Assembly (NCBI RefSeq): GCF_010681825.2 | Contig: NZ_CP066776.1 | Span: 2,790,001-2,854,000 of the forward strand | From: Sulfuriroseicoccus oceanibius | GTDB lineage: Bacteria > Verrucomicrobiota > Verrucomicrobiia > Verrucomicrobiales > SLCJ01 | Direction of reading: 5' to 3' | DNA length: 64,000 bases | In this document: positions 19,449 to 38,136 of the stretch, piece after piece | Layout: each line of letters opens with the position of its first letter | Position numbering within the stretch: position 1 is the stretch's first letter | Notes under the pieces: model-generated | Seen by the model: the letters and a program-made list of their open reading frames with translations, nothing else | The model's database searches: none | Told to the model about the DNA's origin: nothing | Position numbers and translations under genes: made by a program

Positions 19449-20754
19449 TTCTGCAAAAAGGACTTTGAAGGATGATGATCAGGCTGCGGACGTTTGATTT
19501 GAAGTGAGGCTGAGCTTTTGGGCTTCTTTGAGGTGATCCATGTTCAGGTAGCGGTGTTGATCGATCCACTGCTCATGGACTTGATGCGTGACAGCCCGGA
19601 TTAAGCGTTGGGCTGCAGCCTGGTTGGGGAAGGTTCGGATAATGTGCGTACGACGCTTAATCTCCTCATTGAGTCGCTCGAGCATATTCGTGCTTTTGAG
19701 ATGCTTGTGATGCTCTCTGGGAAGTCGATAAAAGGTGAGCGTTTCTTCGATCTCACTTTCGACCCAGTCACAGAGCTTGTGGTATTTGCCTCCCCACTTC
19801 GCCAACCATGCCCGCAGATCCTGACGCGCTTCATTGATGTCTCGACGGTCATAGATCCAGCGCCGCTCGGTGCAGCAGTCGTCGTCATGCTTGCGAGGTA
19901 GATGATCAAGAGCGTTGCGAAGGAAGTGGACGTAGCAGCGTTGCCACAGCGCCTCGGGAAGCACTTCGCTGATAGCTCGCCGCAGGCCGGCATGGTTATC
20001 AGTCACGCAGAACTCAACACCCGTCAGTCCGCGTTGCTTGAGTTGAAGTAGGAAGTTCTTCCAGCTACTTCCGCTTTCCCTTTGATCGAGCTCGGTAGCA
20101 AGGACCTCCCGTCGGCCATCCCAACTGATGCCAATGGCGATCAACACAGCCTGGCTGCGCACCACGCCGTTCTCTCGAACCTTTTCGTACCGGGCGTCCA
20201 GGATGAGATAGGGATAGGCATGGCTGAGCTTGCGTCGGGCGAAGTTCTCAAGCTCTTCATTCAACGTTTTGTTCAGCCTGCTTACCACACTGGCGCTAAC
20301 TCGGTGACCGCAGAGCTCCTCGGTGATCTGCGCGACTTTACGTGTCGAGACGCCCTGCACGTACATTTCGATCAGGGTGCTTACCAAAGCCTTCTCGCTG
20401 CGTTGATAGCGATCGAAGATCTCGGTGCTGAAGAGTCCGTCGCGATCTTGAGGGACGCGCAGCTCGATCCTTCCTACCCGTGTCAGGAGACTGCGTTGAT
20501 AACTGCCGCTGCGATAACCTCGGCGTCTGTCGCTGCGTTCTGATTTTACCGCCTGGAGTGTCTCGTTCATTTCTTCTTCGAGCATCTCCTGCATCAATTT
20601 CTGAACCAACGGCCTCAGAAAATCTTCCTGCTCGGCAAGAATACTTTTCAACTGCGGCGTTGTGGTCTTATCTGGTCGTGGGGTCATGGTGTGACGATTA
20701 GGGGTTCTTGTTTTGTTAAAAACCTAATCAATCATCATGACCCTTTTTGCAGAA
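19449..20754 (-). mobile_element. IS256-family insertion sequence, complete
   Basis: About 1.3 kb carrying one intact transposase. The outermost 13 bases are perfect inverted repeats: TTCTGCAAAAAGG at 19449-19461 and its complement at 20742-20754. Similarity continues inwards (ATGATGAT on the left, ATGATGATT in the right end). The CTGCAAAAAGG end is usual for IS256 relatives. No 8-9 bp target duplication is visible in the flanks (TACGTCAAG left, GCTTTGGCA right). Confidence 0.88.
19479..20687 (-). CDS. IS256-family transposase (mutator type)
   Basis: 402 residues, full length and uninterrupted. DDE residues: Asp about 164 in LILDARYEKVR, Asp about 230 in CVTDNHAGL and Glu about 337 in STNMLERLNEEIKRR. 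The intervening QRCYVHFLRN carries the conserved C..H pair. The N-terminal 160 residues contain RSLLTRVGRIELRVPQDRDG, typical of the group. Because frame and catalytic triad are intact and both ends are present, it is probably transposition-competent. It sits between putA and the SET gene without breaking either. Confidence 0.97.
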   Translation of the reverse strand: MTPRPDKTTTPQLKSILAEQEDFLRPLVQKLMQEMLEEEMNETLQAVKSERSDRRRGYRSGSYQRSLLTRVGRIELRVPQDRDGLFSTEIFDRYQRSEKALVSTLIEMYVQGVSTRKVAQITEELCGHRVSASVVSRLNKTLNEELENFARRKLSHAYPYLILDARYEKVRENGVVRSQAVLIAIGISWDGRREVLATELDQRESGSSWKNFLLQLKQRGLTGVEFCVTDNHAGLRRAISEVLPEALWQRCYVHFLRNALDHLPRKHDDDCCTERRWIYDRRDINEARQDLRAWLAKWGGKYHKLCDWVESEIEETLTFYRLPREHHKHLKSTNMLERLNEEIKRRTHIIRTFPNQAAAQRLIRAVTHQVHEQWIDQHRYLNMDHLKEAQKLSLTSNQTSAA

Positions 20755-24900: not shown

Positions 24901-25548
24901 ATGCCACAACCGAAAATCCAACTCTCCGAACAGTTCGCAATCGGCTACAAACAGCCACTTGCCACCACCAGTGACGAGATCTCACTCGGTGAAGGCAACC
25001 ATTACCTCCTCGCCCGCAACGGCCGCGGAAAAACCACACTGCTCAAAACCCTCGCAGGAAACCTCAAGAGCAAAAGCGGATCGTTCCAGATCGATGGCAA
25101 ACTTCAGTTCGTAAACGAATTCCTCGATTTCGACCGCGAGCTCACGCCCACTTCCATCTTCAAAGCCCTCGTACCAAAGAAGCGCCGCGCCGAAGCCATC
25201 TCCATGGCCAACAAGGTGGAACTCGACGTCAAAAAGCCATTCGGTCAGCTTTCGCGAGGCAACCGCCAAAAGACCATCCTCATCATGGCGGAGTGCCGCA
25301 CCTCCCCGGCCATTCAAAACATCATGTTGCTTGACGAACCATTCACCGGACTCGACGCGTTCACACAGCAATTCTTCCTCGACCACTGGCAGAACGACAC
25401 CGCCAACACACTGCGACTGATCACCTGCCACCCGGATTCTGATGAGATGCAGTTTCCGAGTGTCGTCACCATTACCGACGGCAAACTCACCCACCTCACC
25501 AACGAGCAATCCCATCGCTGGAGTTCGCTGAAAGACCAATTGAACTAA
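24901..25548 (+). CDS. ABC transporter ATP-binding protein
   Basis: 215-residue single nucleotide-binding domain. Walker A is RNGRGKTTLL (about 40-49), with Arg where Ser/Cys is common. The signature-like LSRGNRQK replaces LSGGQ, and Walker B is IMLLDEPFTGLD. The H-loop His is in RLITCHPDSDE. It is the first gene of a closely spaced run (33 bases to the permease, then 27 to the His-rich gene and 21 to pilT), which links this transporter to the pilus genes. The roughly 240 bases upstream, after the phosphatase gene, contain no gene that I can see. Confidence 0.9.
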   Translation: MPQPKIQLSEQFAIGYKQPLATTSDEISLGEGNHYLLARNGRGKTTLLKTLAGNLKSKSGSFQIDGKLQFVNEFLDFDRELTPTSIFKALVPKKRRAEAISMANKVELDVKKPFGQLSRGNRQKTILIMAECRTSPAIQNIMLLDEPFTGLDAFTQQFFLDHWQNDTANTLRLITCHPDSDEMQFPSVVTITDGKLTHLTNEQSHRWSSLKDQLN

Positions 25549-25581: not shown

Positions 25582-26352
25582 ATGGACATCTTCCGCCTAT
25601 TCCTCGCCACCATCATACAGCACAAGGTCTGGATCGTTTGGACACTGCTGCTCGTCGTCGGGGCCTTGGTCTTCCCGACCATGACTCCATGGGAACAAGA
25701 GCCGTCACTGATTGAGCCGGCACGCGCCCACACGGCTTGGGTTCTCTTTTGGCTCATCTGCCTGACCTGGGGACTCTACCAAGCGGCAGCCATCGGCACC
25801 CGCCTCCGCCGCGACGGCCTGGGCGACTACTTCGCCAGCCAGGGAACCGGCCAACTCAGCCAACTTTTCCAAGGGTGGAGCGCCGTGATGGTATTCGTCA
25901 TTGGTTTCACCTTGATCACCGGTGCCATCACCATTTTCGGAGCCTCCCCGGCCGCTGAAGACCAAGCCACCGCTTGGAGCCACCTCACGCTCCAATACAT
26001 GCTGCTTGCTGGCATTTCGATCGGCTCTCTGGTCTTCCTCGCCGTCAGCCTCGGCACTCGCGTCGGATCCACCGTCGCCTATCTGGTCACTCTCGGGCTT
26101 GGGCTACATGGACTCTACGGAGTCGGCTACCTGCGCATGTTCTCACGTGAAAGCGGTAGCCCAGTCGCAGACACCCTGTGGACCGTCAGCCCTCATTTCC
26201 ACCTCGCCGATCTGACCCACCGCTTGGTGTTCAAATCCGGACAACTGACATCTTCCACATTTTTTGACATCCTTATTTATTTGTTGGGCGTAGCGCTCGT
26301 GCTGCTCGGTATCAGCGCGATTGCATTCAACTCGCGCCAATCCAGCAAGTAA
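25582..26352 (+). CDS. ABC-2-like six-helix membrane protein, presumed permease
   Basis: 256 residues with six hydrophobic helices (WIVWTLLLVVGALVFP, AWVLFWLICLTWGLYQ, AVMVFVIGFTLITGAITIFG, YMLLAGISIGSLVFLAVSLG, VAYLVTLGLGLHGLYG, ILIYLLGVALVLLGISAIA). No sequence signature of a named importer is present. Topology and position right after a lone ATPase gene make it the membrane partner of an ABC-2-type exporter or a mechanical ABC complex. It is followed within 27 bases by the His/Cys-repeat protein, the likely third subunit. Confidence 0.78.
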   Translation: MDIFRLFLATIIQHKVWIVWTLLLVVGALVFPTMTPWEQEPSLIEPARAHTAWVLFWLICLTWGLYQAAAIGTRLRRDGLGDYFASQGTGQLSQLFQGWSAVMVFVIGFTLITGAITIFGASPAAEDQATAWSHLTLQYMLLAGISIGSLVFLAVSLGTRVGSTVAYLVTLGLGLHGLYGVGYLRMFSRESGSPVADTLWTVSPHFHLADLTHRLVFKSGQLTSSTFFDILIYLLGVALVLLGISAIAFNSRQSSK

Positions 26353-26379: not shown

Positions 26380-27681
26380 ATGCCCTCGCTTCTTTCCAAT
26401 CCCCGTACCCTCGGTCTCGCCGCTATCGGCGTCGGCGCAGGCTTGTGGGCGCTTGGTGCCAACGGCTTGTCGTCCGGCGGACAAAGCGCATTCGAGTACG
26501 AGCCAAACGTAGCCACCATCAACGGCAGCCCGTTTGGCAAAACCCTCGCGCTCACGGCACAGGGATCAATCGACTTCTACTGGCACGAAGGAGCAGATGA
26601 CCCGAACGCACCACACGTCCACGGCCCCGAATGCGCCGACGGCTGTACCCACGGCAGCAGTGAAGACACCCACGTCCATGGACCAGACTGCGGTCACGAC
26701 CACCGCGGCACAGCCGACCACAAACCTCACGCACACGGCCCGGATTGCGGACCTGACTGTGGCCACGACCACCACGACAAAGCCGACCACAAACCCCACG
26801 CACACGGTCCGGATTGCGGACCCGACTGTGGTCACGACCACCACGCCAAAGCCGATCACAAACCTCACGCGCACGGCCCGGATTGCGGACCCGACTGTGG
26901 TCACGACCACCACGCCACAGCCGATCACAAACCTCACGCACACGGTCCGGATTGCGGACCCGACTGTGGCCACGACCACCACGCCAAAGCCGATCACAAA
27001 CCTCACGCGCACGGCCCGGATTGCGGACCAGACTGTGGTCACGACCACCACACGCCAAAAGTAACTCCAAGCTCCGCAACACCACAGGAGCCGATGCTCA
27101 GCCGCGCGAAAACTCGACTACAGCAACTCTCGGCCGCTAGATTCACCAAAACATCGGACGAACCGATGACCCCTCGCCACAAGCAATTCATTTCTAACGA
27201 AATTGAACGTAAGCTGGAGTTCGCCCACAAACTCGACCCGCTCAACTACACCAATTTCAACAACCTCTATCTTTTCTACTCAACCAATGATTTAGGCAGA
27301 GAACTCAAGTCCACATCGGAGCTGCGCGAGCTCGCTCAAAGCGTCCGTAAACTGGCAGATGAGTCGTCAGAGAACCCGGCTCCATGGCTCACAGCCGCCG
27401 CCACTCAGGACATCCTCTTCAGCCTCATCTACGATTGGGAACCGGAAACCGCCACTCCAGAAAAGCTCGTTCCTATCCTCCAAGACTACCACTACTGCCT
27501 GACCACTTTTGTGCAAAAACGCAACGCTCTTAAACAAACAGGCCTCTGGACCAACATTTCTGCAAAACGCAGGACACAAATGGAAGATCGCTTTCTTTTC
27601 CTCTCCAAGCTTTACAAAGCCAAGCTAATCACGTTAGAACAGATGGTCCCACAGGTCTCTGTGGAACTTGGCAACCGCTAA
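26380..27681 (+). CDS. Membrane-anchored protein with five His/Cys-rich 23-residue repeats
   Basis: 433 residues. One N-terminal hydrophobic segment (LGLAAIGVGAGLWALGANGL, about 11-30) would anchor it with the rest outside the cytoplasm. After a degenerate HGPDCGHDH stretch come five nearly identical 23-residue units (about 112-226) built on ADHKPHAHGPDCGPDCGHDH. Each unit has six or seven His, two Cys and several Asp, a strong metal-ligand pattern. The C-terminal 200 residues are helical and Trp/Tyr-containing (LEFAHKLDPLNYTNFNNLYL, LVPILQDYHYCLTTFVQKRN) and match nothing I know. It lies between the ABC permease and pilT with gaps of 27 and 21 bases. Metal binding or sensing coupled to the transporter or pilus is inference. 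Confidence 0.75.
   Translation: MPSLLSNPRTLGLAAIGVGAGLWALGANGLSSGGQSAFEYEPNVATINGSPFGKTLALTAQGSIDFYWHEGADDPNAPHVHGPECADGCTHGSSEDTHVHGPDCGHDHRGTADHKPHAHGPDCGPDCGHDHHDKADHKPHAHGPDCGPDCGHDHHAKADHKPHAHGPDCGPDCGHDHHATADHKPHAHGPDCGPDCGHDHHAKADHKPHAHGPDCGPDCGHDHHTPKVTPSSATPQEPMLSRAKTRLQQLSAARFTKTSDEPMTPRHKQFISNEIERKLEFAHKLDPLNYTNFNNLYLFYSTNDLGRELKSTSELRELAQSVRKLADESSENPAPWLTAAATQDILFSLIYDWEPETATPEKLVPILQDYHYCLTTFVQKRNALKQTGLWTNISAKRRTQMEDRFLFLSKLYKAKLITLEQMVPQVSVELGNR
26713..27057 (+). repeat. Five in-frame 69-bp tandem repeats
   Basis: Five copies with 69-bp periodicity encode ADHKPHAHGPDCGPDCGHDHH plus two variable residues (DK, AK, AT, AK, TP). Copies differ at a few, mostly synonymous, third positions (GAC/GAT, GGT/GGC), which indicates recent expansion with purifying selection on the peptide. 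The periodicity opens long false reading frames on both strands. Copy number is likely to vary between strains. Confidence 0.9.
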
Positions 27682-27702: not shown

Positions 27703-29022
27703 ATGGAAGCCGCCCACGAAACACCTGATCCGCGCTTTACCCTCGACCAGACCGGCACGTCGCTGCGTCTGTCTGTCGATGACGCGGACAGCACTCTCCA
27801 ACTCTCATCGGACCAGTCCGCTGCTGCGTTCCACTTGCGGAGCGGCGCTGAACTGCTGCGTTGGGCATTGGCTGTAGGTACCGACCTCGGGGTTTCAGAC
27901 ATTCAGTTCCGCTCGAACCGCCTGCTCTACGTCGAAACCAGCCAAGGCATGCGCATCCTCGCCGAGCCCGGCATCCTTTCCGAGGAAATCGTCCTCGACG
28001 TGCTCAAGGAACTCATCCGCTTCAAGGAGGAAACCAACCGCAATTTCGAAGGCTTCGAGGCCAACCGAGAAGACTCTGATGTCCTCTACTGCCTCCATAA
28101 AACCAGGGTCGCAGACTTCGCTTGCCAGCAGATCGATATGGATGGCGCAGGGCGCCTCAGCGGCCGCTTGCGTATCCAGGCACACTTCAGTGCCTCCGGC
28201 CTCGGGGTCACCTGCCGTATTCTCAACGACTCCATCCCAGAGCTTGAGGAGCTGGGGCTGTCCACTGACCTCATCGACGCCATGCGCGCCGCGGTCCAGC
28301 GTCGTGCAGGACTTGCACTTGTTACTGGACCAACAGGGTCCGGTAAATCCACCACTCTCGCCGCCTTGATCGACTGGCTTCGCCGCAACCACGCGAAGCA
28401 CATCGTGACCGTGGAAGACCCTGTCGAATACTCTTACCCGCCGAGCATGGACGACCCCGAGGGATCCGGCTACCAAATCGCCAGCCCCGGCTTGGTCACC
28501 CAGCAGGAAGTCGGCCGCGACGTCTCGAGCTATCACCAGGGGCTCAAGGACGTGCTGCGTAAAGCACCTCACATCATCCTGCTCGGTGAGATCCGTGACC
28601 GCGAAGCCATGGAGACCGCGCTTGAGGCGGCCCAGACCGGTCACTTCGTGATCTCCACACTCCACACCACCGGCGCGGTCAAAACCATGGGACGTATCCT
28701 TGAGATGTTCCCTCGCGAGAAGCACGAGGCCATCCTCGGCCGCATGAGTGAAATGCTCGTATTCATCCTTTCCCAGGGACTCCTCAGAACCGAAAACGGA
28801 CGCGTTCTGACCTACGAGTTCCTCCAAAACGGTGACGATGCCTGCTCATCAGCCATCGCCAACTACTACGGCGGCTCCCGCGCCCTCGAAGACGTCATCA
28901 GACGCTCGGGTAACATCGAGTGGGACGCCCAACTCTACAACCTTTACAGTCAAGGTCTCATTGACGCGGAAACTTTTGAAAACAACCGGATGAAACGGGG
29001 TGAAGACACCTCCGAATTCTAA
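27703..29022 (+). CDS. pilT: PilT-type retraction ATPase of a type IV pilus system
   Basis: 439 residues. Walker A is TGPTGSGKSTT (about 209-218), the Asp box is TVEDPVEYS, Walker B is HIILLGEIRDREAMETAL and the His box is STLHTTGAVKT. It lacks the four-cysteine insert and long N-terminal domain of PilB/GspE. The PilT-type core is preceded by an N-terminal segment of about 60 residues and followed by a C-terminal tail (LYNLYSQGLIDAETFENN) as in PilT proteins. Hexameric cytoplasmic motors of this kind drive pilus depolymerisation. It starts 21 bases after the His/Cys-repeat gene and is followed by a pilin. Confidence 0.9.
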   Translation: MEAAHETPDPRFTLDQTGTSLRLSVDDADSTLQLSSDQSAAAFHLRSGAELLRWALAVGTDLGVSDIQFRSNRLLYVETSQGMRILAEPGILSEEIVLDVLKELIRFKEETNRNFEGFEANREDSDVLYCLHKTRVADFACQQIDMDGAGRLSGRLRIQAHFSASGLGVTCRILNDSIPELEELGLSTDLIDAMRAAVQRRAGLALVTGPTGSGKSTTLAALIDWLRRNHAKHIVTVEDPVEYSYPPSMDDPEGSGYQIASPGLVTQQEVGRDVSSYHQGLKDVLRKAPHIILLGEIRDREAMETALEAAQTGHFVISTLHTTGAVKTMGRILEMFPREKHEAILGRMSEMLVFILSQGLLRTENGRVLTYEFLQNGDDACSSAIANYYGGSRALEDVIRRSGNIEWDAQLYNLYSQGLIDAETFENNRMKRGEDTSEF

Positions 29023-29090: not shown

Positions 29091-29513
29091 ATGAAAAAAA
29101 ATACACTGCGTAAGAACAAGGGCATGACCCTTCTCGAGCTCACCATCGTGATCCTCGTCCTTCTCACCCTGATCGGCGTCCTCTTCTTCGGCGCCCAGGC
29201 ATACAAAGAGGGATCGGACCGCACTGCCTGCGTCCTCAACATTCGCAACGTTCAACTTGCGATGCGTTCCTACGTGAACCTGAACGGCATCCCGCAGGAC
29301 ACTGCCATGAGCCAAGGCGACTTCATCGGGACTGGCAAGTTCTTGGAGGCATTACCAGAGTGCCCCGGAGGAGGAACATACACCTTGGATCTCGGTACCG
29401 AAGTCCCAGCAGCGGGTGATGTAGTCACTACATGCTCCCTCAACGCTTCCAAAAACCACGACCCACAGTGGGACGGGAGCGGGCTTGACGCTTCGAAGAC
29501 CGGAGATTGGTAA
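29091..29513 (+). CDS. Type IV pilin-like protein 1
   Basis: 140 residues. A short basic leader ends at Gly11, followed by MTLLELTIVILVLLTLIGVL, the class-III prepilin signature with Glu at mature position 5. The globular part contains LNIRNVQLAMRSYVNLNGIP, ALPECPGGGTY and a second Cys pair candidate (VTTCSLNA). The first residue after cleavage is Met rather than Phe, which is tolerated. The AT-rich 68 bases upstream and the strong terminator downstream suggest the gene can be expressed separately at high level, as expected for a major pilin. Cleavage needs a PilD peptidase encoded elsewhere. Confidence 0.88.
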   Translation: MKKNTLRKNKGMTLLELTIVILVLLTLIGVLFFGAQAYKEGSDRTACVLNIRNVQLAMRSYVNLNGIPQDTAMSQGDFIGTGKFLEALPECPGGGTYTLDLGTEVPAAGDVVTTCSLNASKNHDPQWDGSGLDASKTGDW

Positions 29514-29743: not shown

Positions 29744-31519
29744 GTGAATCAGCTCCATCACCCAGAGACACTCTCAGCAGTCAAAGCCTACCGTCAGGCC
29801 TGCATGGTCGCGAACTCAAGCTCGCGCGCATCCAATCCGGACTGGTACAAGCCGGCTCATCAAGTTGGACTCCAGTGGCATATCCGGACCACCGGCTCGC
29901 CACGTTTGGCGTCTGCCGTGTATTCAGAGTCCGACCAAGCTTGGAGCGACGGACCGAACCTGAATCTGCCTCAACTGCGCTCGATGGATGCCTTGGAGGC
30001 TGCCATTGACGAGATCCTCAAACGCCACCCGAAGGCCAAGAGCCTGGGCATCGTGCTCCATATCGCGGACGAGTTCGCGACCACTGAGATTTTCGAAGAT
30101 TTTTCCGATTGGAACCAGCTCGACGCCTTGAGCGAGCAACTGTCCACAAATCCCCACTCACTCATCGGCGACGAAGGCATGGCGACCGAAGACACGTCAT
30201 GGCGCATCATCCCAACGCCTGGCGCCATCACGCCTCCGATCTGCACCACCGTCGCGATCTCGCACCGATACCAAGAGGTGCTCGCCAACCTGCGGGCACT
30301 GGGCGAAAAGCGCAACTTCCCAATTGTCACGGAAGGCGTCAGCGCTCCACTTGCCTTTCTTGCCCTACTGCCGGCATTCCTCGACTTTGAGAACGAAGCA
30401 CCCAAGTTGGTCGTCCTGCACTACCACAAGTTTTCGGCGCTCTCGATCTTCAGTCCAAATGGCGAATTGATCAAAGTGCGTGCGCTGCCACACCGGGGCC
30501 GCCCTCATCCGCCCAACCTGAGCGACACATTGACCGCTGCGGTCCACGCGAACGAGTTGCAAAAGCCGCAGATCATTCTGGTACCGATGACCTCGACGGA
30601 CATCGAGCCCTTGGTGACCCAGCTCCACGCCACCTTGCACTTGGACGACGATCCCGTGATCGACGTGATCAAGCCAGGAGTGGAGCCAGTGACCCAATGC
30701 GCAGGCAGCCGTCCGGAAATGCTCATGGCTCTTCCCGACTACACCGCATCCGAGCACTCTAACACGTTCAAGATGCTTGGTGGGCAAGGTTGGGCTTTCC
30801 AAGACTTCCTCGCCCCTCCCGCTGATGAGTCCGCTGCCATTCCGTCGTGGAAGGAGATGCAGTTGCTCAAGCTGAGCAAATTGGCGAAACCTGTCTTTGC
30901 CTTGGTGGCGATCGGCGCTCTTGGATTGACCATGACCGGAGTCATTAGTGCCATATCCAACGAGAGCTGGCAGTACGATGAGACCACCACCTCGATGCTC
31001 AATGGCGAAATCAATCTCTTACAACAAAAACAAAAGGCGCATGCCCATTGGGAAAATATCCTCGCAGACCGTACCTCTGCTTGGACCACTCTCGAATTGA
31101 TTGCCCGGATTTTCCCAAAGGACTCGGGGGTCCTTGTAGAGAACGTCGAATATTCCGCCCGCGTCGAGCAGGCTAAGAAGGGCAACACCCTTCCATTCGC
31201 CCGCAGTTGGACGATCACTGGCGCTGCAACCGATGTCGGCGAGGAGCACCTCACTTCGCTGAACTCACGCGATGGAATCAGTGCCGTCTTCACCGAAATC
31301 ACCGACGCCACAGGCATTCAATCGTTCGACCCGAGCTCGGATACGCGGCAGTTACTGATCAACGTGACCCTCGGCAACAACCCGCAATACAATCGGAGTG
31401 CCCGAGTCACCCGACCGCTCGATCTGGAGAACTGCCCGACACGTTTTACCATGAAGATCGATCTCCAGTACTCGGCCAAAGACGACTTGGCTCTCACCAG
31501 AGGCAAGCAACCGAAATAA
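29744..31519 (+). CDS. PilM/PilN-like fused inner-membrane platform protein
   Basis: 591 residues from a GTG at 29744; the ATG at 29804 is an alternative. The first 330 residues are a soluble alpha/beta region consistent with a degenerate actin-like PilM fold (VGLQWHIRTTGSPRLASAVY, later KLVVLHYHKFSALSIFSPNG). A single membrane helix follows at about 382-405 (LAKPVFALVAIGALGLTMTG), then a periplasmic part like PilN (coiled LNGEINLLQQKQKAHAHWEN, then TAWTTLELIARIFP-type and beta segments). In most bacteria PilM and PilN are separate. The position, upstream of PilO-, PilP- and PilQ-like genes, parallels the Akkermansia Amuc_1098-1102 cluster. The fold claim is inference from order and topology. 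Confidence 0.6.
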   Translation: MNQLHHPETLSAVKAYRQACMVANSSSRASNPDWYKPAHQVGLQWHIRTTGSPRLASAVYSESDQAWSDGPNLNLPQLRSMDALEAAIDEILKRHPKAKSLGIVLHIADEFATTEIFEDFSDWNQLDALSEQLSTNPHSLIGDEGMATEDTSWRIIPTPGAITPPICTTVAISHRYQEVLANLRALGEKRNFPIVTEGVSAPLAFLALLPAFLDFENEAPKLVVLHYHKFSALSIFSPNGELIKVRALPHRGRPHPPNLSDTLTAAVHANELQKPQIILVPMTSTDIEPLVTQLHATLHLDDDPVIDVIKPGVEPVTQCAGSRPEMLMALPDYTASEHSNTFKMLGGQGWAFQDFLAPPADESAAIPSWKEMQLLKLSKLAKPVFALVAIGALGLTMTGVISAISNESWQYDETTTSMLNGEINLLQQKQKAHAHWENILADRTSAWTTLELIARIFPKDSGVLVENVEYSARVEQAKKGNTLPFARSWTITGAATDVGEEHLTSLNSRDGISAVFTEITDATGIQSFDPSSDTRQLLINVTLGNNPQYNRSARVTRPLDLENCPTRFTMKIDLQYSAKDDLALTRGKQPK

Positions 31520-31555: not shown

Positions 31556-32101
31556 ATGAGCGCTTACACAAAGCCTATCACCCTGTTTGGAATTGCGATC
31601 CCTGCGGTTGCAACCATCGTATTCTGCATTGCCTGCGTGGTGGTGAAGAGCAAGATCTCCGCCAAAGCGGATGAGCGCGAAGCCGCGTTCAGCCAGCACA
31701 ACGCACTCCAGCAGCAAGTCAATAAACTGCGCAGTGACGTACAACCGACCTCAAAGGAACTTGATGATTGGTACAAAGTGCTGACGGATGACATCCGCCC
31801 GACGGCAGCAGAAACACTAAAGTCCGTCGAGTCTGACTTCACTCCGTCCCAACTCGCGCTGACCTCCCGCCAGTTCTCACCCAGCAAGCCTGGCAGTCTC
31901 GCCAACGGAGCACGCCAAAGATCATCCACGGTAAAACTGGCATTCCGCGGAACCTACCTACCGATGCAGCTCGCATTGCAGAAAATCGAGACCTCGCTGC
32001 CTCAACTCGCTCTCGAATCGATGACCATTGGCCGTGAACGCGGCTACGATGACCTCATCTTCAACCTCTCCTACACAGCGTGGGAGAAGGAGACCAAGTA
32101 A
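31556..32101 (+). CDS. PilO-like bitopic membrane protein
   Basis: 181 residues. One N-terminal membrane helix (LFGIAIPAVATIVFCIACVV, about 10-29) is followed by a coiled-coil (ISAKADEREAAFSQHNALQQ, QVNKLRSDVQ) and a small alpha/beta domain ending in LALESMTIGRERGYDDLIFN. The region STVKLAFRGTYLPMQLALQK resembles the PilO/GspM ferredoxin-like fold where a strand precedes a helix. Its genomic slot, between the PilM/N-like gene and the PilP-like/secretin genes, is the slot of PilO and of the Akkermansia surface protein Amuc_1100. It is shorter than Amuc_1100, and homology to it is not shown. Confidence 0.6.
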   Translation: MSAYTKPITLFGIAIPAVATIVFCIACVVVKSKISAKADEREAAFSQHNALQQQVNKLRSDVQPTSKELDDWYKVLTDDIRPTAAETLKSVESDFTPSQLALTSRQFSPSKPGSLANGARQRSSTVKLAFRGTYLPMQLALQKIETSLPQLALESMTIGRERGYDDLIFNLSYTAWEKETK

Positions 32102-32664: not shown

Positions 32665-34521
32665 ATGAAAACGAAGCCCTCCATCCCAACCTTGGCCATG
32701 ATCGCCGCCACGGCGATTGGGTCGATCTCCTCAATCCATGCCCAAGGCGAACCGCCTGCCGACGCTCCGGTAAGTGCGCTTGAGCGCGAACGCGTTGCCG
32801 CCGAGGCCGCCTTTGACGGTCTGATTTTCGAGGGCGAACCCCTCAATGACGTGATCGGTCTGCTCGCCACCCAGGCCGGCAAATCCTACACCCACAACCC
32901 GGCACTTAACGGACCACAATACTCCGTCGCCGGTAACATCGCCGCTGGAGATCCACTTGCCACCATCCAAGAGCTCGCATTTGGCTTCAATGTCGAGATT
33001 CACGTCCGTGGCAACACCATCTACGCACTCTCGCCTCAGGATGTGCAACAATTGCCGCAGGAAGAGTGGGCCTATCAGCTCAAGTATCTTCGCCCATCGG
33101 ACTTCGAGAACCTGCGTGGCATCATCCAACCGCTGCTGACTCCTGGCACGGGAACCGTCAACTTCGAGCCGAAAACCAACACCCTTTTGGTGATCGATTC
33201 GAAACGCCGGATCGAGCGCATCAACAACTTCATGGCAAAGCTCGACCGACCAAAGGGGCAGATCATCGTGGAAACGAAGATCCTGCGTATCAATAGCTCG
33301 GCCGGCAGCCGCATTGGTGTCGACTGGAGCTCGACTCTCGGCGAGCAGGGCCTGACCTTCGACGCCATTCAGAACCTTAACTCGCTCTTCAATCTGCCAG
33401 ATTCACGCTCGCTGTCGAAGGTCACCACCGACGACTTCACTTCTGGACAGGAGCTTGCAAACTCCGTTACAAACGGCTTGATCGGAGGCGCCAATGGCCA
33501 ACTTACCAACAACGGCTCGCTCAACACCAACTCGATCGAAACCCGCTCCTCGACCCCAGGTTCCGGATTGGTTCTTGCTCCGGTTCAGCTCCAAGCCGTG
33601 CTCCGTGCACTCAACGAAGGCAACATTGCCAACCAGCGCACCAACCCGACGTTGATCACCGAGGACAACGAACAGGCACTCATCACGATCATCGACCGTG
33701 TGCCAATCATCACCTCGACCATCTCGCAGACATCCGCCGGCCAGAACATCACCGACGAAGTCCGCTACACCATCGACGAGTCCGACCCAACTCTCTCCGA
33801 TGCGGAGAACCCTGGCGAAACCCGCGAGGTCGGTGTGACCCTTACCGTCACCCCTACCCTGCTGCCGGACAACACCATCCGCATGGACCTGCGCCCGCGT
33901 ACCGCACAGATCGTCGACTTCGTCGAAGGCCGCAGTGGCAACGTTTACCCACGCGTTACCGAATCGATGGTTCAGTCGATTGCTCGCGTCCCTAACGGTC
34001 ACTCGCTGATCATCGGTGGCTTCTACGGATACACCGACAGCAACAAGGAGAACAAAGTCCCGATCCTCGGTGACATCCCGGTGGTGAACTTCTTCTTCAA
34101 GAGCAAGGAAACCATCAAGGAGTCGACCAGCTTGGTGTTCATCATCACCCCGACCTCGTACGATCCATCCAGCGCCATCGAAAATCTCCGCGCCAATGAC
34201 GCCATCTACGACAACGTAGCCCTGGACAGCGACCACAACGAAGTCTTCTCACCTCGCGTCGAAGGTGTCGCCCATCGATCCAACATGGGCAACACCGTGC
34301 GTAACATCATGCGCCCACGTGACGACAAAGCCGAAGATCAGCGCAACCCATTGGTTCGCCCCGAGCGCGCCGATGAAAAGGTGCAGCAAAACATGGAGCG
34401 CTACGAAGCGACCTATCAAAAGGCCAAGGCAGCGCAATCTCAGCAGGCAGCACCTGCGACCAAGGCTCCTGCCAAAACCACCCCAAGCTCGAAGAAATTC
34501 GAGGGGGGCATGTTTGACTAG
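32665..34521 (+). CDS. pilQ: Secretin of the type IV pilus/type II secretion family (PilQ-like)
   Basis: 618 residues with a signal peptide (AMIAATAIGSISSIHA). N-domains occupy about 50-190 (FEGEPLNDVIGLLATQAGKS; YLRPSDFENLRGIIQPLL). The secretin core shows ETKILRINSSAGSRIGVDWS, ILI-type beta-hairpin repeats and the signature VPILGDIPVVNFFFKSK near residue 465, followed by SLVFIITPTSYDP. A low-complexity C-terminal tail (APATKAPAKTTPSSKK) extends past the barrel and could bind a pilotin or the cell wall. It forms the outer-membrane gate. Terminator-like hairpins follow, so PilM/N to PilQ may be one transcription unit. Confidence 0.9.
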   Translation: MKTKPSIPTLAMIAATAIGSISSIHAQGEPPADAPVSALERERVAAEAAFDGLIFEGEPLNDVIGLLATQAGKSYTHNPALNGPQYSVAGNIAAGDPLATIQELAFGFNVEIHVRGNTIYALSPQDVQQLPQEEWAYQLKYLRPSDFENLRGIIQPLLTPGTGTVNFEPKTNTLLVIDSKRRIERINNFMAKLDRPKGQIIVETKILRINSSAGSRIGVDWSSTLGEQGLTFDAIQNLNSLFNLPDSRSLSKVTTDDFTSGQELANSVTNGLIGGANGQLTNNGSLNTNSIETRSSTPGSGLVLAPVQLQAVLRALNEGNIANQRTNPTLITEDNEQALITIIDRVPIITSTISQTSAGQNITDEVRYTIDESDPTLSDAENPGETREVGVTLTVTPTLLPDNTIRMDLRPRTAQIVDFVEGRSGNVYPRVTESMVQSIARVPNGHSLIIGGFYGYTDSNKENKVPILGDIPVVNFFFKSKETIKESTSLVFIITPTSYDPSSAIENLRANDAIYDNVALDSDHNEVFSPRVEGVAHRSNMGNTVRNIMRPRDDKAEDQRNPLVRPERADEKVQQNMERYEATYQKAKAAQSQQAAPATKAPAKTTPSSKKFEGGMFD

Positions 34522-34592: not shown

Positions 34593-35186
34593 ATGTTTTC
34601 ATCCGATTTCGAAGGCAATGACCTAGGCGGTTCGTCCGCCAACAGTAGCTTTGTGGATCCTGATTTGCGCGACAAGCAGAAGACCGTGGCCAGAAAGACC
34701 CTGGACGCACTCATCACGCGCAAACACCTCAGCTTCGACGAAGCGGAACAGATTCAATCCGCTTACCTTTCCGAACTCGATGGCATGGCATCAGTCGAAG
34801 TATTCGAGACCATCGTGCGACTCAGCACCACCTCACCGCGCGATATCCCACAGTTCATCCGCCAACTGGGTGACGCCGTGTCCAAGACCCTGGAGCGCAA
34901 CGTTCCTTACGTACCACTGGCAGGACGGCTGCAAAAACCCTCGGCATTCTACGAGCGGCACGATTCGGTCAAACCTCTGTGCAAAGCGTTGCTCACCCCT
35001 ATCCTCTACGCTGAAGAGTCGGAAGTGATCGGAATTGGGTCCATCAATCCGAAGGCCGCATTTGTTGCCTCCGAACTCGTCGCAAATGCGGTTTCAGCAA
35101 CCGAGCCCGTCAAGCCCTTCATGTCTGTGGTTCGCGTGGACTACGACACCTGGAAAACCCTCCTTGAGAAACAATTCGGCTTATGA
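34593..35186 (+). CDS. Unknown protein coupled to pilB
   Basis: 197 residues, soluble, no signal or membrane segment. It is helical in the first half (KTVARKTLDALITRKHLSFD, EAEQIQSAYL). The second half (VPYVPLAGRLQKPSAFYERH, KALLTPILYAEESEVIGIGS, INPKAAFVASELVANAV) matches no family I know. The stop overlaps the pilB start (ATGA), implying translational coupling and a stoichiometric, cytoplasmic partner of the assembly ATPase. It could be a detached N-terminal ATPase domain or a regulator. Strongly supported as a gene by reading-frame length and coupling; function unassigned. Confidence 0.72.
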   Translation: MFSSDFEGNDLGGSSANSSFVDPDLRDKQKTVARKTLDALITRKHLSFDEAEQIQSAYLSELDGMASVEVFETIVRLSTTSPRDIPQFIRQLGDAVSKTLERNVPYVPLAGRLQKPSAFYERHDSVKPLCKALLTPILYAEESEVIGIGSINPKAAFVASELVANAVSATEPVKPFMSVVRVDYDTWKTLLEKQFGL

Positions 35187-36874
35187 TCTCTATCGACAGC
35201 ATCACCTTCAATGAAGGCATCAGCGACCGGATCATGGCGCGTCTTGAGGCGCATGACCCGGCAATCGCAAACATCAACCACGACCAGATCGAGTCGAAGA
35301 CCACGCGTTCGACCCTGATGGCGGCAATTGCTTCGCTGCGCGATCTCCCCTTTATCCCGAAAGTGGCCGCATTGACGGATATGGAGTTGGTACGCGTTTG
35401 CGACCCAAAAGTCCTCAACCGCGGCATGTTCGCGCCTATCGCACGCGAAGGAAAATTCCTGATCGTGGCGGTCTGTGACCCGTGGAACGACCTGCCGCTC
35501 GACTACCTCGGGCTGATCTTTCCTGAGCTTGAGATCACCATGGTGGTCACGCTCCCCTCGGAGATCACCAAGATCGTCGAGGTGCTCTCGTCGACTGCCG
35601 GCCCCGGGAAATCCGAGCTCGAAGCAATTGAAGTCGAAGACACCGACGACGAAATTCAGGATTTCGACGTCCTTAAGAAGTACGACGAACCCATCGCCCA
35701 ATTGATCGCCACTATGATGGCGACCGCCGTCCAGCTTGGTGTTTCTGATATTCACATCAAAGTGGAGAAGGACACCTTCTACTACAGCTACCGTCTCGAC
35801 GGGGACCTGGGCGAGAAGTACCAGCTTCCAATGAAGCTGCGCGACCGTGTCGACGCCTTCCTGATGAACTTGATGAAGCTGGCGACCGAAAAACGTTCGA
35901 CCAGCCCGGGCATCTCCGGTCGTTTCAGTCTTTCCTACCTTCACCGCAGTATCGACGTCCGTTACGAGCGCCACCGGACCTACCGTGGTTACCACGTGAC
36001 CATGCGATTGCTCGACAAAGGCAACTTGAGCGTTGCTCTCGGTAAAGGCAACATGGCCTTCGACCCGGAGACCCTTTTCGAGCTACGCCGCGTGATGCGT
36101 ATCCCGGCTGGTATTATCGTGATGTCCGGACCTACCGGATCCGGTAAGTCCACCACGCTCAACGCCATGCTGCGCGAGCTCAACGAACCCGAGGTCAACA
36201 TCCTCACTCTGGAAAACCCGGTGGAGGATGAAATCCCCGGCGTGACCCACTGTGACTTGAAAGGCCCTGCCGAGTTCAAACCCATGATCTCCTCGTTCAT
36301 GCGAAGTGACCCGGATATCATCCTGATGGGTGAGGTGCGTGACACCGAATCCGCAGAACTTGCTATCGAGGCCGCTATTACCGGTCACAAGGTGCTGACC
36401 ACGGTCCACACGCCACGGGCCAGTCAGATCATCGAACGTTTCGAGCAGCTCGGAATGGAGCGCTGGAAGATCGCGCAGACTCTAAAAGCAGCCTGCGCCC
36501 AGCGTCTCTGTAAGGAACTCTGCACGTCCTGCAAGATCCGCCTCGATGGCGTCTCAGAGGAAGATCGCCGGGTTTTCAACTTGGAGGAAGAGTGGGCACA
36601 CAAAGAGGTGTATAAGGCGGCCCCTGAGGGTTGCTCGGAATGCGGAGGCAGTGGCTACAAAGGACGTACCGCCATTCTGGAAATCATCCCGATCTCGCCC
36701 TCAGTCTCCGATGAGCTCTCAAAAGGCACACTCAGCCCGTACGAGCTGGAGATCCGAATCCAGGAAGAAGGCCGCCTGCCGTCCCTTCGCAAAAGTGGTC
36801 TTCGCCTATTGGAAGCCGGAAAAACCGACCTCAAAGCACTCGCCAAGGTCATTGATATGACCTACACCGACTAG
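35183..36874 (+). CDS. pilB: PilB/GspE-type assembly ATPase
   Basis: 563 residues. An N-terminal GspE-N-like domain (about 1-150) precedes the motor. Walker A is SGPTGSGKSTTLNAM (about 316-325), the Asp box is LTLENPVEDEIPG, Walker B is DIILMGEVRDTESAELAI and the His box is TTVHTPRASQ. The zinc tetracysteine typical of PilB/GspE is present as CKELCTSC and CSECGGSGYKGRTAILEI. These hexamers drive pilin polymerisation or secretion from the cytoplasmic side. It overlaps the unknown gene before it and precedes pilC by 41 bases. Confidence 0.93.
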   Translation: MISIDSITFNEGISDRIMARLEAHDPAIANINHDQIESKTTRSTLMAAIASLRDLPFIPKVAALTDMELVRVCDPKVLNRGMFAPIAREGKFLIVAVCDPWNDLPLDYLGLIFPELEITMVVTLPSEITKIVEVLSSTAGPGKSELEAIEVEDTDDEIQDFDVLKKYDEPIAQLIATMMATAVQLGVSDIHIKVEKDTFYYSYRLDGDLGEKYQLPMKLRDRVDAFLMNLMKLATEKRSTSPGISGRFSLSYLHRSIDVRYERHRTYRGYHVTMRLLDKGNLSVALGKGNMAFDPETLFELRRVMRIPAGIIVMSGPTGSGKSTTLNAMLRELNEPEVNILTLENPVEDEIPGVTHCDLKGPAEFKPMISSFMRSDPDIILMGEVRDTESAELAIEAAITGHKVLTTVHTPRASQIIERFEQLGMERWKIAQTLKAACAQRLCKELCTSCKIRLDGVSEEDRRVFNLEEEWAHKEVYKAAPEGCSECGGSGYKGRTAILEIIPISPSVSDELSKGTLSPYELEIRIQEEGRLPSLRKSGLRLLEAGKTDLKALAKVIDMTYTD

Positions 36875-36915: not shown

Positions 36916-38136
36916 ATGCCACCACTCAATCAAGTCCCATCCTCCGCGCCAAAGCCTGTTGCCCCCAAACCGGTTACCCCGAAGCCTCCCAAAGGCGCTG
37001 CGAAAGAGCAAACAGCTGAGGGAAGCGCACCTAAAAAGGAAAAGAAATCCTTGGCGAGCAAAGAGATCGAGATCTTCGGCCCAAAGAAGATCAAGATGCC
37101 CGAAAAGGAACTTATCAAGTTTTACCGGGGTATGGCATCAATGCTGCGCTCGCAGATCAACACAGGTGATGCATTGAAGTATTATGCCCACGGAATGACC
37201 AATCGACCGGTAGCTGATAAGGTCATAGGCATTCAAGAGGCGATTACAGCGGGGGTTCCGATTCATGAGGCATTCCGTAAGTCAGAGCTCTTCGACGACA
37301 CCACCATTGGTCTGGTTCAGGCCGGAACAGAGTCCGGCCAACTGGATCAGGCCTTCACCGCAGTAGCCCATCGCATCAAGACGGCACACGAATTCAAGGT
37401 AAAGGTGAGGAAAGCAATTGCCGTCCCACTTGTTGTAATTTCCTTACTTATCTTTGCTTTCATCATGTCGCAGGTGAAGATCGTCCCCCAAGTAGAGGAG
37501 ATGCTCATGCAAGTGGCCCAAGAACCGGACGCATTCACAGGTTTGATCTTTAAGATGAGTCACTTCACCCAGGAATGGTGGTCTACGATTGTTATAGCAA
37601 TCGTTATCGCTGTGGTAGCGATCGTATTTTCAGAGGGGTTACGGACTATCATCACCAACATTGCGATGTCCAAATGGCGCCTGTTGCGCAACCTCATCAT
37701 GGGACTTCGCCAAATGACCTTCCTCGGAACCATGCACATGCTGCACTCCAACGGAATCAACCTGGCAAAGGCTATTCAAACCGCAGCGAGCAGTGTCAAA
37801 GGGACGCCAATGCACGACGAGCTCAAGGAAGCTGCCAACAAATATCAGGAGACCGGCTTACCGGTTTCCGAGGCCTTCAAGAAATTCACATCTTGTGACC
37901 CACAGGTTTCCCACATGCTTTTCATTGGTGAAAGGGCTGCCTCTATCGATACCCAATTGAAGATGTTGTCGGAGATGTACGAGGAAGACACGCGCGCATA
38001 CATGGAAGATTTCACCGCGGCCTTGAACTTGGTGGTTTTGATCGTCGCCGTGATTCTGATTGCCACGGTCTTCATTGGAACCTTCCTTCCAATCTTCTTG
38101 ATGGGGCCAAAGATGATGCAAGGTGGCAACATGTAG
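36916..38136 (+). CDS. pilC: PilC/GspF inner-membrane platform protein
   Basis: 406 residues. An unusual N-terminal extension of about 55 residues is Pro/Lys-rich (APKPVAPKPVTPKPPKGAAK), then two GspF repeats follow (FYRGMASMLRSQINTGDALK near 70; LRQMTFLGTMHMLHSNGINL near 275), each followed by helical hairpins and membrane segments (AIAVPLVVISLLIFAFIMSQ, TIVIAIVIAVVAIVF, LNLVVLIVAVILIATVFIGT). It anchors PilB at the membrane and passes pilins to the filament. The charged proline-rich N-terminus is longer than usual and may contact PilB or the coupled unknown protein. Confidence 0.92.
   Translation: MPPLNQVPSSAPKPVAPKPVTPKPPKGAAKEQTAEGSAPKKEKKSLASKEIEIFGPKKIKMPEKELIKFYRGMASMLRSQINTGDALKYYAHGMTNRPVADKVIGIQEAITAGVPIHEAFRKSELFDDTTIGLVQAGTESGQLDQAFTAVAHRIKTAHEFKVKVRKAIAVPLVVISLLIFAFIMSQVKIVPQVEEMLMQVAQEPDAFTGLIFKMSHFTQEWWSTIVIAIVIAVVAIVFSEGLRTIITNIAMSKWRLLRNLIMGLRQMTFLGTMHMLHSNGINLAKAIQTAASSVKGTPMHDELKEAANKYQETGLPVSEAFKKFTSCDPQVSHMLFIGERAASIDTQLKMLSEMYEEDTRAYMEDFTAALNLVVLIVAVILIATVFIGTFLPIFLMGPKMMQGGNM

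Follow-up and report, generated by a model that had tools for sequence, protein, structure and literature searches.

The His/Cys repeat protein in the window (the whole 64,000-nucleotide stretch of Sulfuriroseicoccus oceanibius DNA analysed) is most plausibly the third subunit—anchored, extracytoplasmic, TPR-like and bearing a lineage-specific loop expansion that probably binds metal—of an ABC-2-type transporter that specifically serves a type II secretion/type IV pilus-like machine; we give this reading a probability of about 60%. The repeat array arose recently and locally, and the arrangement of transporter and secretion genes is conserved across the phylum. The three genes run in the order ABC ATPase, ABC-2-like permease, repeat protein, and head a same-strand operon of type II secretion/type IV pilus-like character (Table 1), with gaps of 20–33 nt around the repeat gene. 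A secretin, GspE, GspF and a pseudopilin all lie in this one cluster, which amounts to type II secretion gene content.

Table 1 Operon genes and repeat-protein segments, in window coordinates
Feature	Position	Strand	Basis
ABC-transporter ATPase, first gene of set	24901..25548	+	Pfam ABC_tran 42.5 bits, above cut-off; orthologue in 23/23 loci
ABC-2-like permease, second gene of set	25582..26352	+	2/14 orthologues match ABC2_membrane_3, best E 6.7e-8
433-residue repeat protein, third gene of set	26380..27681	+	ORF; profile match in 57/141 genomes of the host's order
N-terminal helix, residues 8–32, taken as membrane anchor	26401..26475	+	AlphaFold2 model; membrane insertion inferred from sequence
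Helix 51–72, S50 just before; conserved G53 and WHxG (W68-H69-E70-G71)	26530..26595	+	21 orthologues; lines up with YFHxG in distant relatives
Two degenerate precursor motifs, HVHGPECADGC and HVHGPDCGHDH	26614..26703	+	Direct reading
Five tandem 23-residue His/Cys/Asp units, 69 nt each	26713..27057	+	Tandem Repeats Finder, codon comparison
C-terminal all-helical TPR-like domain, residues 239–422	27094..27645	+	AlphaFold2, helices mostly pLDDT >90; structural neighbours TPR, 14-3-3
PilT-like type II/IV secretion ATPase	27703..29022	+	T2SSE 145 bits; best NCBIfam PilT/PilU, below cut-off
Pseudopilin-like protein, N-terminal methylation motif	29091..29513	+	N_methyl 21.1 bits against cut-off 21.2; synteny conserved
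Conserved secretion-operon gene, no family match	29744..31519	+	Pfam/NCBIfam searches, synteny
GspM-like protein	31556..32101	+	NF040576 GspM, E 4.5e-6, below cut-off
Secretin, GspD/PilQ type	32665..34521	+	Pfam Secretin 115 bits
Assembly ATPase, GspE/PilB type	35183..36874	+	T2SSE 266 bits and MshEN
Inner-membrane platform protein, GspF/PilC type	36916..38136	+	T2SSF 123 bits

The window permease alone has no significant match in Pfam, none in NCBIfam and, when considered as a NosY-like permease, none among PDB sequences. Its orthologues are more informative: their transporter matches in Pfam are all to ABC-2-type models, with none of the ABC-3/FecCD type. The ATPase has an unusual Walker A motif (ARNGRGKTT), conserved among orthologues, and a signature region LSxGNRQK in place of LSGGQ, which they also keep. 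A PilT-like ATPase of the retraction type is always part of the type II secretion-like operon; we know of no classical type II system with a PilT-like ATPase. Nor, to our knowledge, are type II secretion systems generally described with a dedicated ABC transporter, and a search of the literature on Verrucomicrobia secretion with ABC transporters returned nothing on point.

A single strong array emerges from Tandem Repeats Finder for the window (26680–27051, period 69, 5.4 copies, 92% matches, no indels). Shifted by 69 bases, the sequence matches itself at 0.90 identity; none of 2000 codon shuffles exceeded 0.47. The unit, ADHKPHAHGPDCGPDCGHDHHxx, starts at residues 112, 135, 158, 181 and 204 (nucleotides 26713, 26782, 26851, 26920 and 26989) and the array runs to residue 226. 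Together the five units hold 30 His and 10 Cys, and residues 73–236 contain 37 of the 41 His and 13 of the 14 Cys of the protein. Eight codons vary between units; the six that fall in positions 1–21 are all synonymous, and amino-acid change is confined to positions 22–23 (pS = 0.28, pN = 0.034, pN/pS ~0.12, summed over unit pairs). The sequence-only reading had described just such an array—five repeats of strict 23-residue period, dozens of His, ten Cys, differences mostly synonymous—and these counts and tests bear it out. Two shorter, degenerate copies of the motif precede the array. Within the host genome the HGPDCG pattern is confined to the repeat gene, and a count of repeats in related genomes, as that reading had proposed, found the exact 23-residue unit in none of the relatives recovered; it was seen in the host genome only. 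From its composition the array is likely to bind several transition-metal ions, with Zn, Cu or Ni as candidates; the Cys of a periplasmic loop could instead be held in disulfides.

An AlphaFold2 model based on 21 orthologues predicts four segments: an anchor helix (8–32), the WHxG helix (51–72), a disordered loop (78–235) and a helical domain (239–422). The repeats fall inside the loop, which separates the conserved WHxG helix from the helical domain. S50 and G53 are invariant among the 21 orthologues, and W68 and G71 are at least 90% conserved. A relative with a short loop gives a model of mean pLDDT 83.7 with the same helices. The proposal that the protein is membrane-anchored fits the predicted helix near the N-terminus, from which we infer membrane insertion and an extracytoplasmic location.

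The C-terminal half was said to be helical and to match nothing familiar, and both statements hold: the model is confidently all-helical, and the protein has no family above cut-off in Pfam, NCBIfam or PADLOC and no sequence match in the PDB. Pfam finds no TPR in it, the C-terminal half giving only DUF matches below threshold, and the PDB sequence search returned no solved relative of the repeat protein or permease, with weak matches of the domain to designed helical repeats. Foldseek gave no significant match for the domain (best E 0.05), the chains retrieved being mostly TPR and 14-3-3. VIA-align Z scores are 8–10, HOP TPR2A and SycD included, a range in which, as the tool warns, a match may reflect no more than a common arrangement. 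Helical repeats resemble many unrelated chains, so we propose no family from Foldseek or VIA-align, and an absent match proves nothing. On its predicted structure the domain reads as a TPR-like, protein-binding solenoid; neither an enzyme fold nor the fold of a metal-uptake binding protein appeared among the structural matches of the model. A role in anti-phage defence was also considered and set aside, PADLOC being empty for both repeat protein and permease.

The ABC set is co-inherited with the secretion genes and is not a chance neighbour of the repeat gene. ATPase, permease and PilT-like gene surround the third gene in 23 of 23 loci drawn from four family groups of the host's order, and in every order locus examined the neighbours are secretion genes. 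One family group (f5) places the set downstream of secretin–GspE–GspF, with the PilT-like gene convergent. Profile searches of 141 genomes of the order found the third protein and the permease in 57 each and the PilT-like gene in 59, all three occurring together in 56; the PilT-like gene is present in 57 of the 57 genomes with the third protein and the permease in 56 of 57 (Fisher p 1.2e-37 for third protein and PilT-like gene, uncorrected for shared ancestry). No third-protein match was found in the listed genomes of one genus with small genomes (2.2–3.3 Mb). A scan of contigs with a profile built from the domain alignment, the full-length alignment being too divergent, gave 36 loci, all in Verrucomicrobiota records.

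More distant versions occur elsewhere in the phylum. The permease profile matched three genomes of other groups, and the two that were read encode an ATPase, a permease and, in third place, an anchored protein that has TPRs and the sequence DLYFHKGV. This phylum-level third protein is present in 32 of 240 genomes of the phylum, and all three genes stand in order in 17 of 17 distant loci. Secretion-type neighbours accompany 12 of these, with none in the fetched stretch of the other five; the commonest are an ExeA-like ATPase (for which the top NCBIfam model is an XrtA-associated ATPase, just below cut-off), an MshEN protein, GspE and GspF, and a pseudopilin also occurs. Aligned by hhalign, the order- and phylum-level third proteins are in register over IDxxWHxG/ADxYFHxG and an EI..LRxAxxxDP helix, scoring 26.6 against a column-shuffled mean of 14.2 and maximum of 25.5 (0 of 200 as high) and 14.7 when reversed. 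The nominal E-value is only 0.006, and we therefore grade their homology as probable, not certain. The distant loci (L097–L133) share with the host locus the gene order, a homologous permease, the N-terminal anchor, YFHxG, a helical domain, His/Cys-rich tails and secretion neighbours. They differ in having TPRs above the Pfam cut-off, in a His/Cys-rich segment that is mostly C-terminal instead of an internal loop, and in the remoteness of the sequence similarity. Most phylum-level third proteins carry an HxHxxG motif and many have His/Cys-rich acidic tails. Across L097–L133 an ABC ATPase, ABC-2 permease and anchored TPR protein adjoin an ExeA/XrtA-type AAA ATPase, an MshEN protein and GspE/GspF in many genomes.

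The loop joining the WHxG helix to the domain is 28 to 182 residues long in a set of 54 relatives that includes the window. When the window is left out, His makes up 8.3% of the loop and Cys 2.2%; the corresponding figures for the domain are 3.1% and 1.3%. Defined as at least six His plus Cys within 25 residues, a ligand-rich loop is present in 25 of the 54 relatives versus 4 of 163 neighbouring gene products, with HxHxxGxxCxxC and CxxCGHDH as recurrent motifs; the loops of the remaining relatives are proline-rich (family f5) or plain. On a quick tree built without the loop, where the branches to the window and to its nearest relative are long, at least 8 switches of the ligand-rich state fall on well-supported branches; parsimony counts 15. 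Since the loop is His/Cys-rich in 25 of 54 and otherwise proline-rich or plain, ligand-rich segments are a recurrent but dispensable property of the third subunit. Metal binding would be at most an accessory property of the subunit, because about half of the relatives do without a ligand-rich loop. The idea of a dense metal-ligand array outside the membrane, next to a transporter, thus survives as a description (30 His and 10 Cys, an adjoining ABC set, the extracytoplasmic side presumed); as an account of core function it fails, because the exact unit is absent from relatives and about half lack a His/Cys-rich loop.

The known system closest in plan is found in Myxococcus, where published accounts describe PilG-PilH-PilI as an ABC exporter complex that is required for assembling pili and exporting PilA, with PilG in the accessory role (PMC3924187, PMC3724824, PMC3546991). 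The M. xanthus complex (TC 3.A.1.144.5) also combines an ATPase, a permease and an extracytoplasmic accessory factor in a type IV pilus cluster; the suggested likeness is drawn from gene order and published descriptions. The M. xanthus genes adjoin pilA, whereas the host set heads a type II secretion-like operon, and the excerpts of those papers mention no His/Cys array for PilG (PMC3924187, PMC3724824, PMC3546991). GldA and GldF of the gliding-motility ABC transporter are among the NCBIfam models similar to the phylum-level ATPase and permease, but all scores are far below curated cut-offs and the window permease has no match.

By analogy with PilG-PilH-PilI in pilin export, the ATPase, permease and repeat protein would form an ATP-driven membrane complex that helps a secretion or pilus machine, as gene order suggests; the helical domain of the repeat protein may face the periplasm and bind a protein partner, for example a pseudopilin or some other machine component. 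The loop between WHxG helix and domain evolves freely; in the host lineage a His-x-His...Cys motif in it would have been copied in tandem five times, with purifying selection then preserving the encoded protein sequence. Metal binding might stiffen or switch the loop, or hold metal locally, and so could tune a periplasmic arm, deliver metal to cargo or act as a buffer. His-rich metal-binding loops are familiar from the bacterial metal proteins ZnuA, SlyD and UreE, which offer an analogy in their disordered His/Asp/Cys-rich segment on a folded domain; the host array differs in lying on a TPR-like ABC/secretion subunit and in consisting of exact tandem units. If the conserved, co-inherited three-gene set holds true across the phylum, it would be an uncharacterised module of a secretion machine. 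The array adds a connection between metals and secretion that can be tested, and illustrates how a disordered loop can be converted repeatedly into an array of ligands without change in the folded parts.

Could the loop be only a neutral spacer, a disordered segment tolerant of repeat expansion and rich in His, Asp and Cys merely by descent from one short motif? Loop length (28–182) and composition are highly variable, one family is proline-rich, the ligand-rich label switches at least eight times on the tree and the exact unit is confined to the host genome, all as such a spacer would have it. Yet the six variable codons of positions 1–21 are all synonymous, with the low pN/pS given above, and ligand-rich loops arise in separate lineages with different sequences at a frequency (25/54 versus 4/163) that neighbouring genes do not approach; we consider this account rather unlikely. 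A sharper form of the favoured explanation makes metal a step in secretion, the loop metallating exported enzymes in the periplasm or metal gating the ABC machine. Secretion linkage combined with recurrent ligand-rich segments, and the HxHxxG motif in most phylum-level members, would suit it, but many members lack ligands and it seems to us distinctly doubtful. The same caution applies to its widest statement, which we rate as clearly improbable: a phylum-wide type II secretion-like machine would have an ABC motor of its own, and fast-evolving His/Cys segments on the periplasmic subunit of that motor would bind metal, so that metal supply, or the metal loading of exported enzymes, gates secretion.

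Metal homeostasis, with an external metal-capturing protein feeding a metal transporter as the sequence-only reading implied, draws on the 30 His and 10 Cys of the units and on the recurrence of His/Cys-rich loops or tails in the family. We hold it to be very unlikely, given the ligands missing in about half of the orthologues and the all-helical AlphaFold2 models. ZnuABC-type uptake systems use an ABC-3/FecCD-type permease, whereas the host orthologues match ABC-2 types only. The search for upstream Zur- or Fur-like sites that the earlier reading had advised gave no match above chance to three consensus patterns in the window (regulators in this phylum may recognise other motifs). By the criteria applied, the region upstream of 24901 holds no inverted repeat. 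With an ABC-2-type permease, no such consensus above chance and secretion neighbours in every order locus examined, a metal-uptake system is not evident. A NosDFY-like complex driving maturation of a periplasmic metal centre would share the three-gene layout, in which an ATPase and an ABC-2-like permease are joined by a partner presumed to be periplasmic. NosD, however, is a β-helix protein and the host partner is all-helical in the models, which counts against it, and nos genes are absent among the conserved neighbours; this reading is scarcely credible.

Two minor observations may be added. Three metagenome-assembled records titled Akkermansia muciniphila (L070, L078 and L091) carry the third protein, in contrast to the listed genomes of the small-genome genus mentioned above; they may be misnamed, or that genus may be a different one. 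A Mutator-family transposase is encoded on the minus strand at 19479–20687, ~4 kb upstream of the operon.
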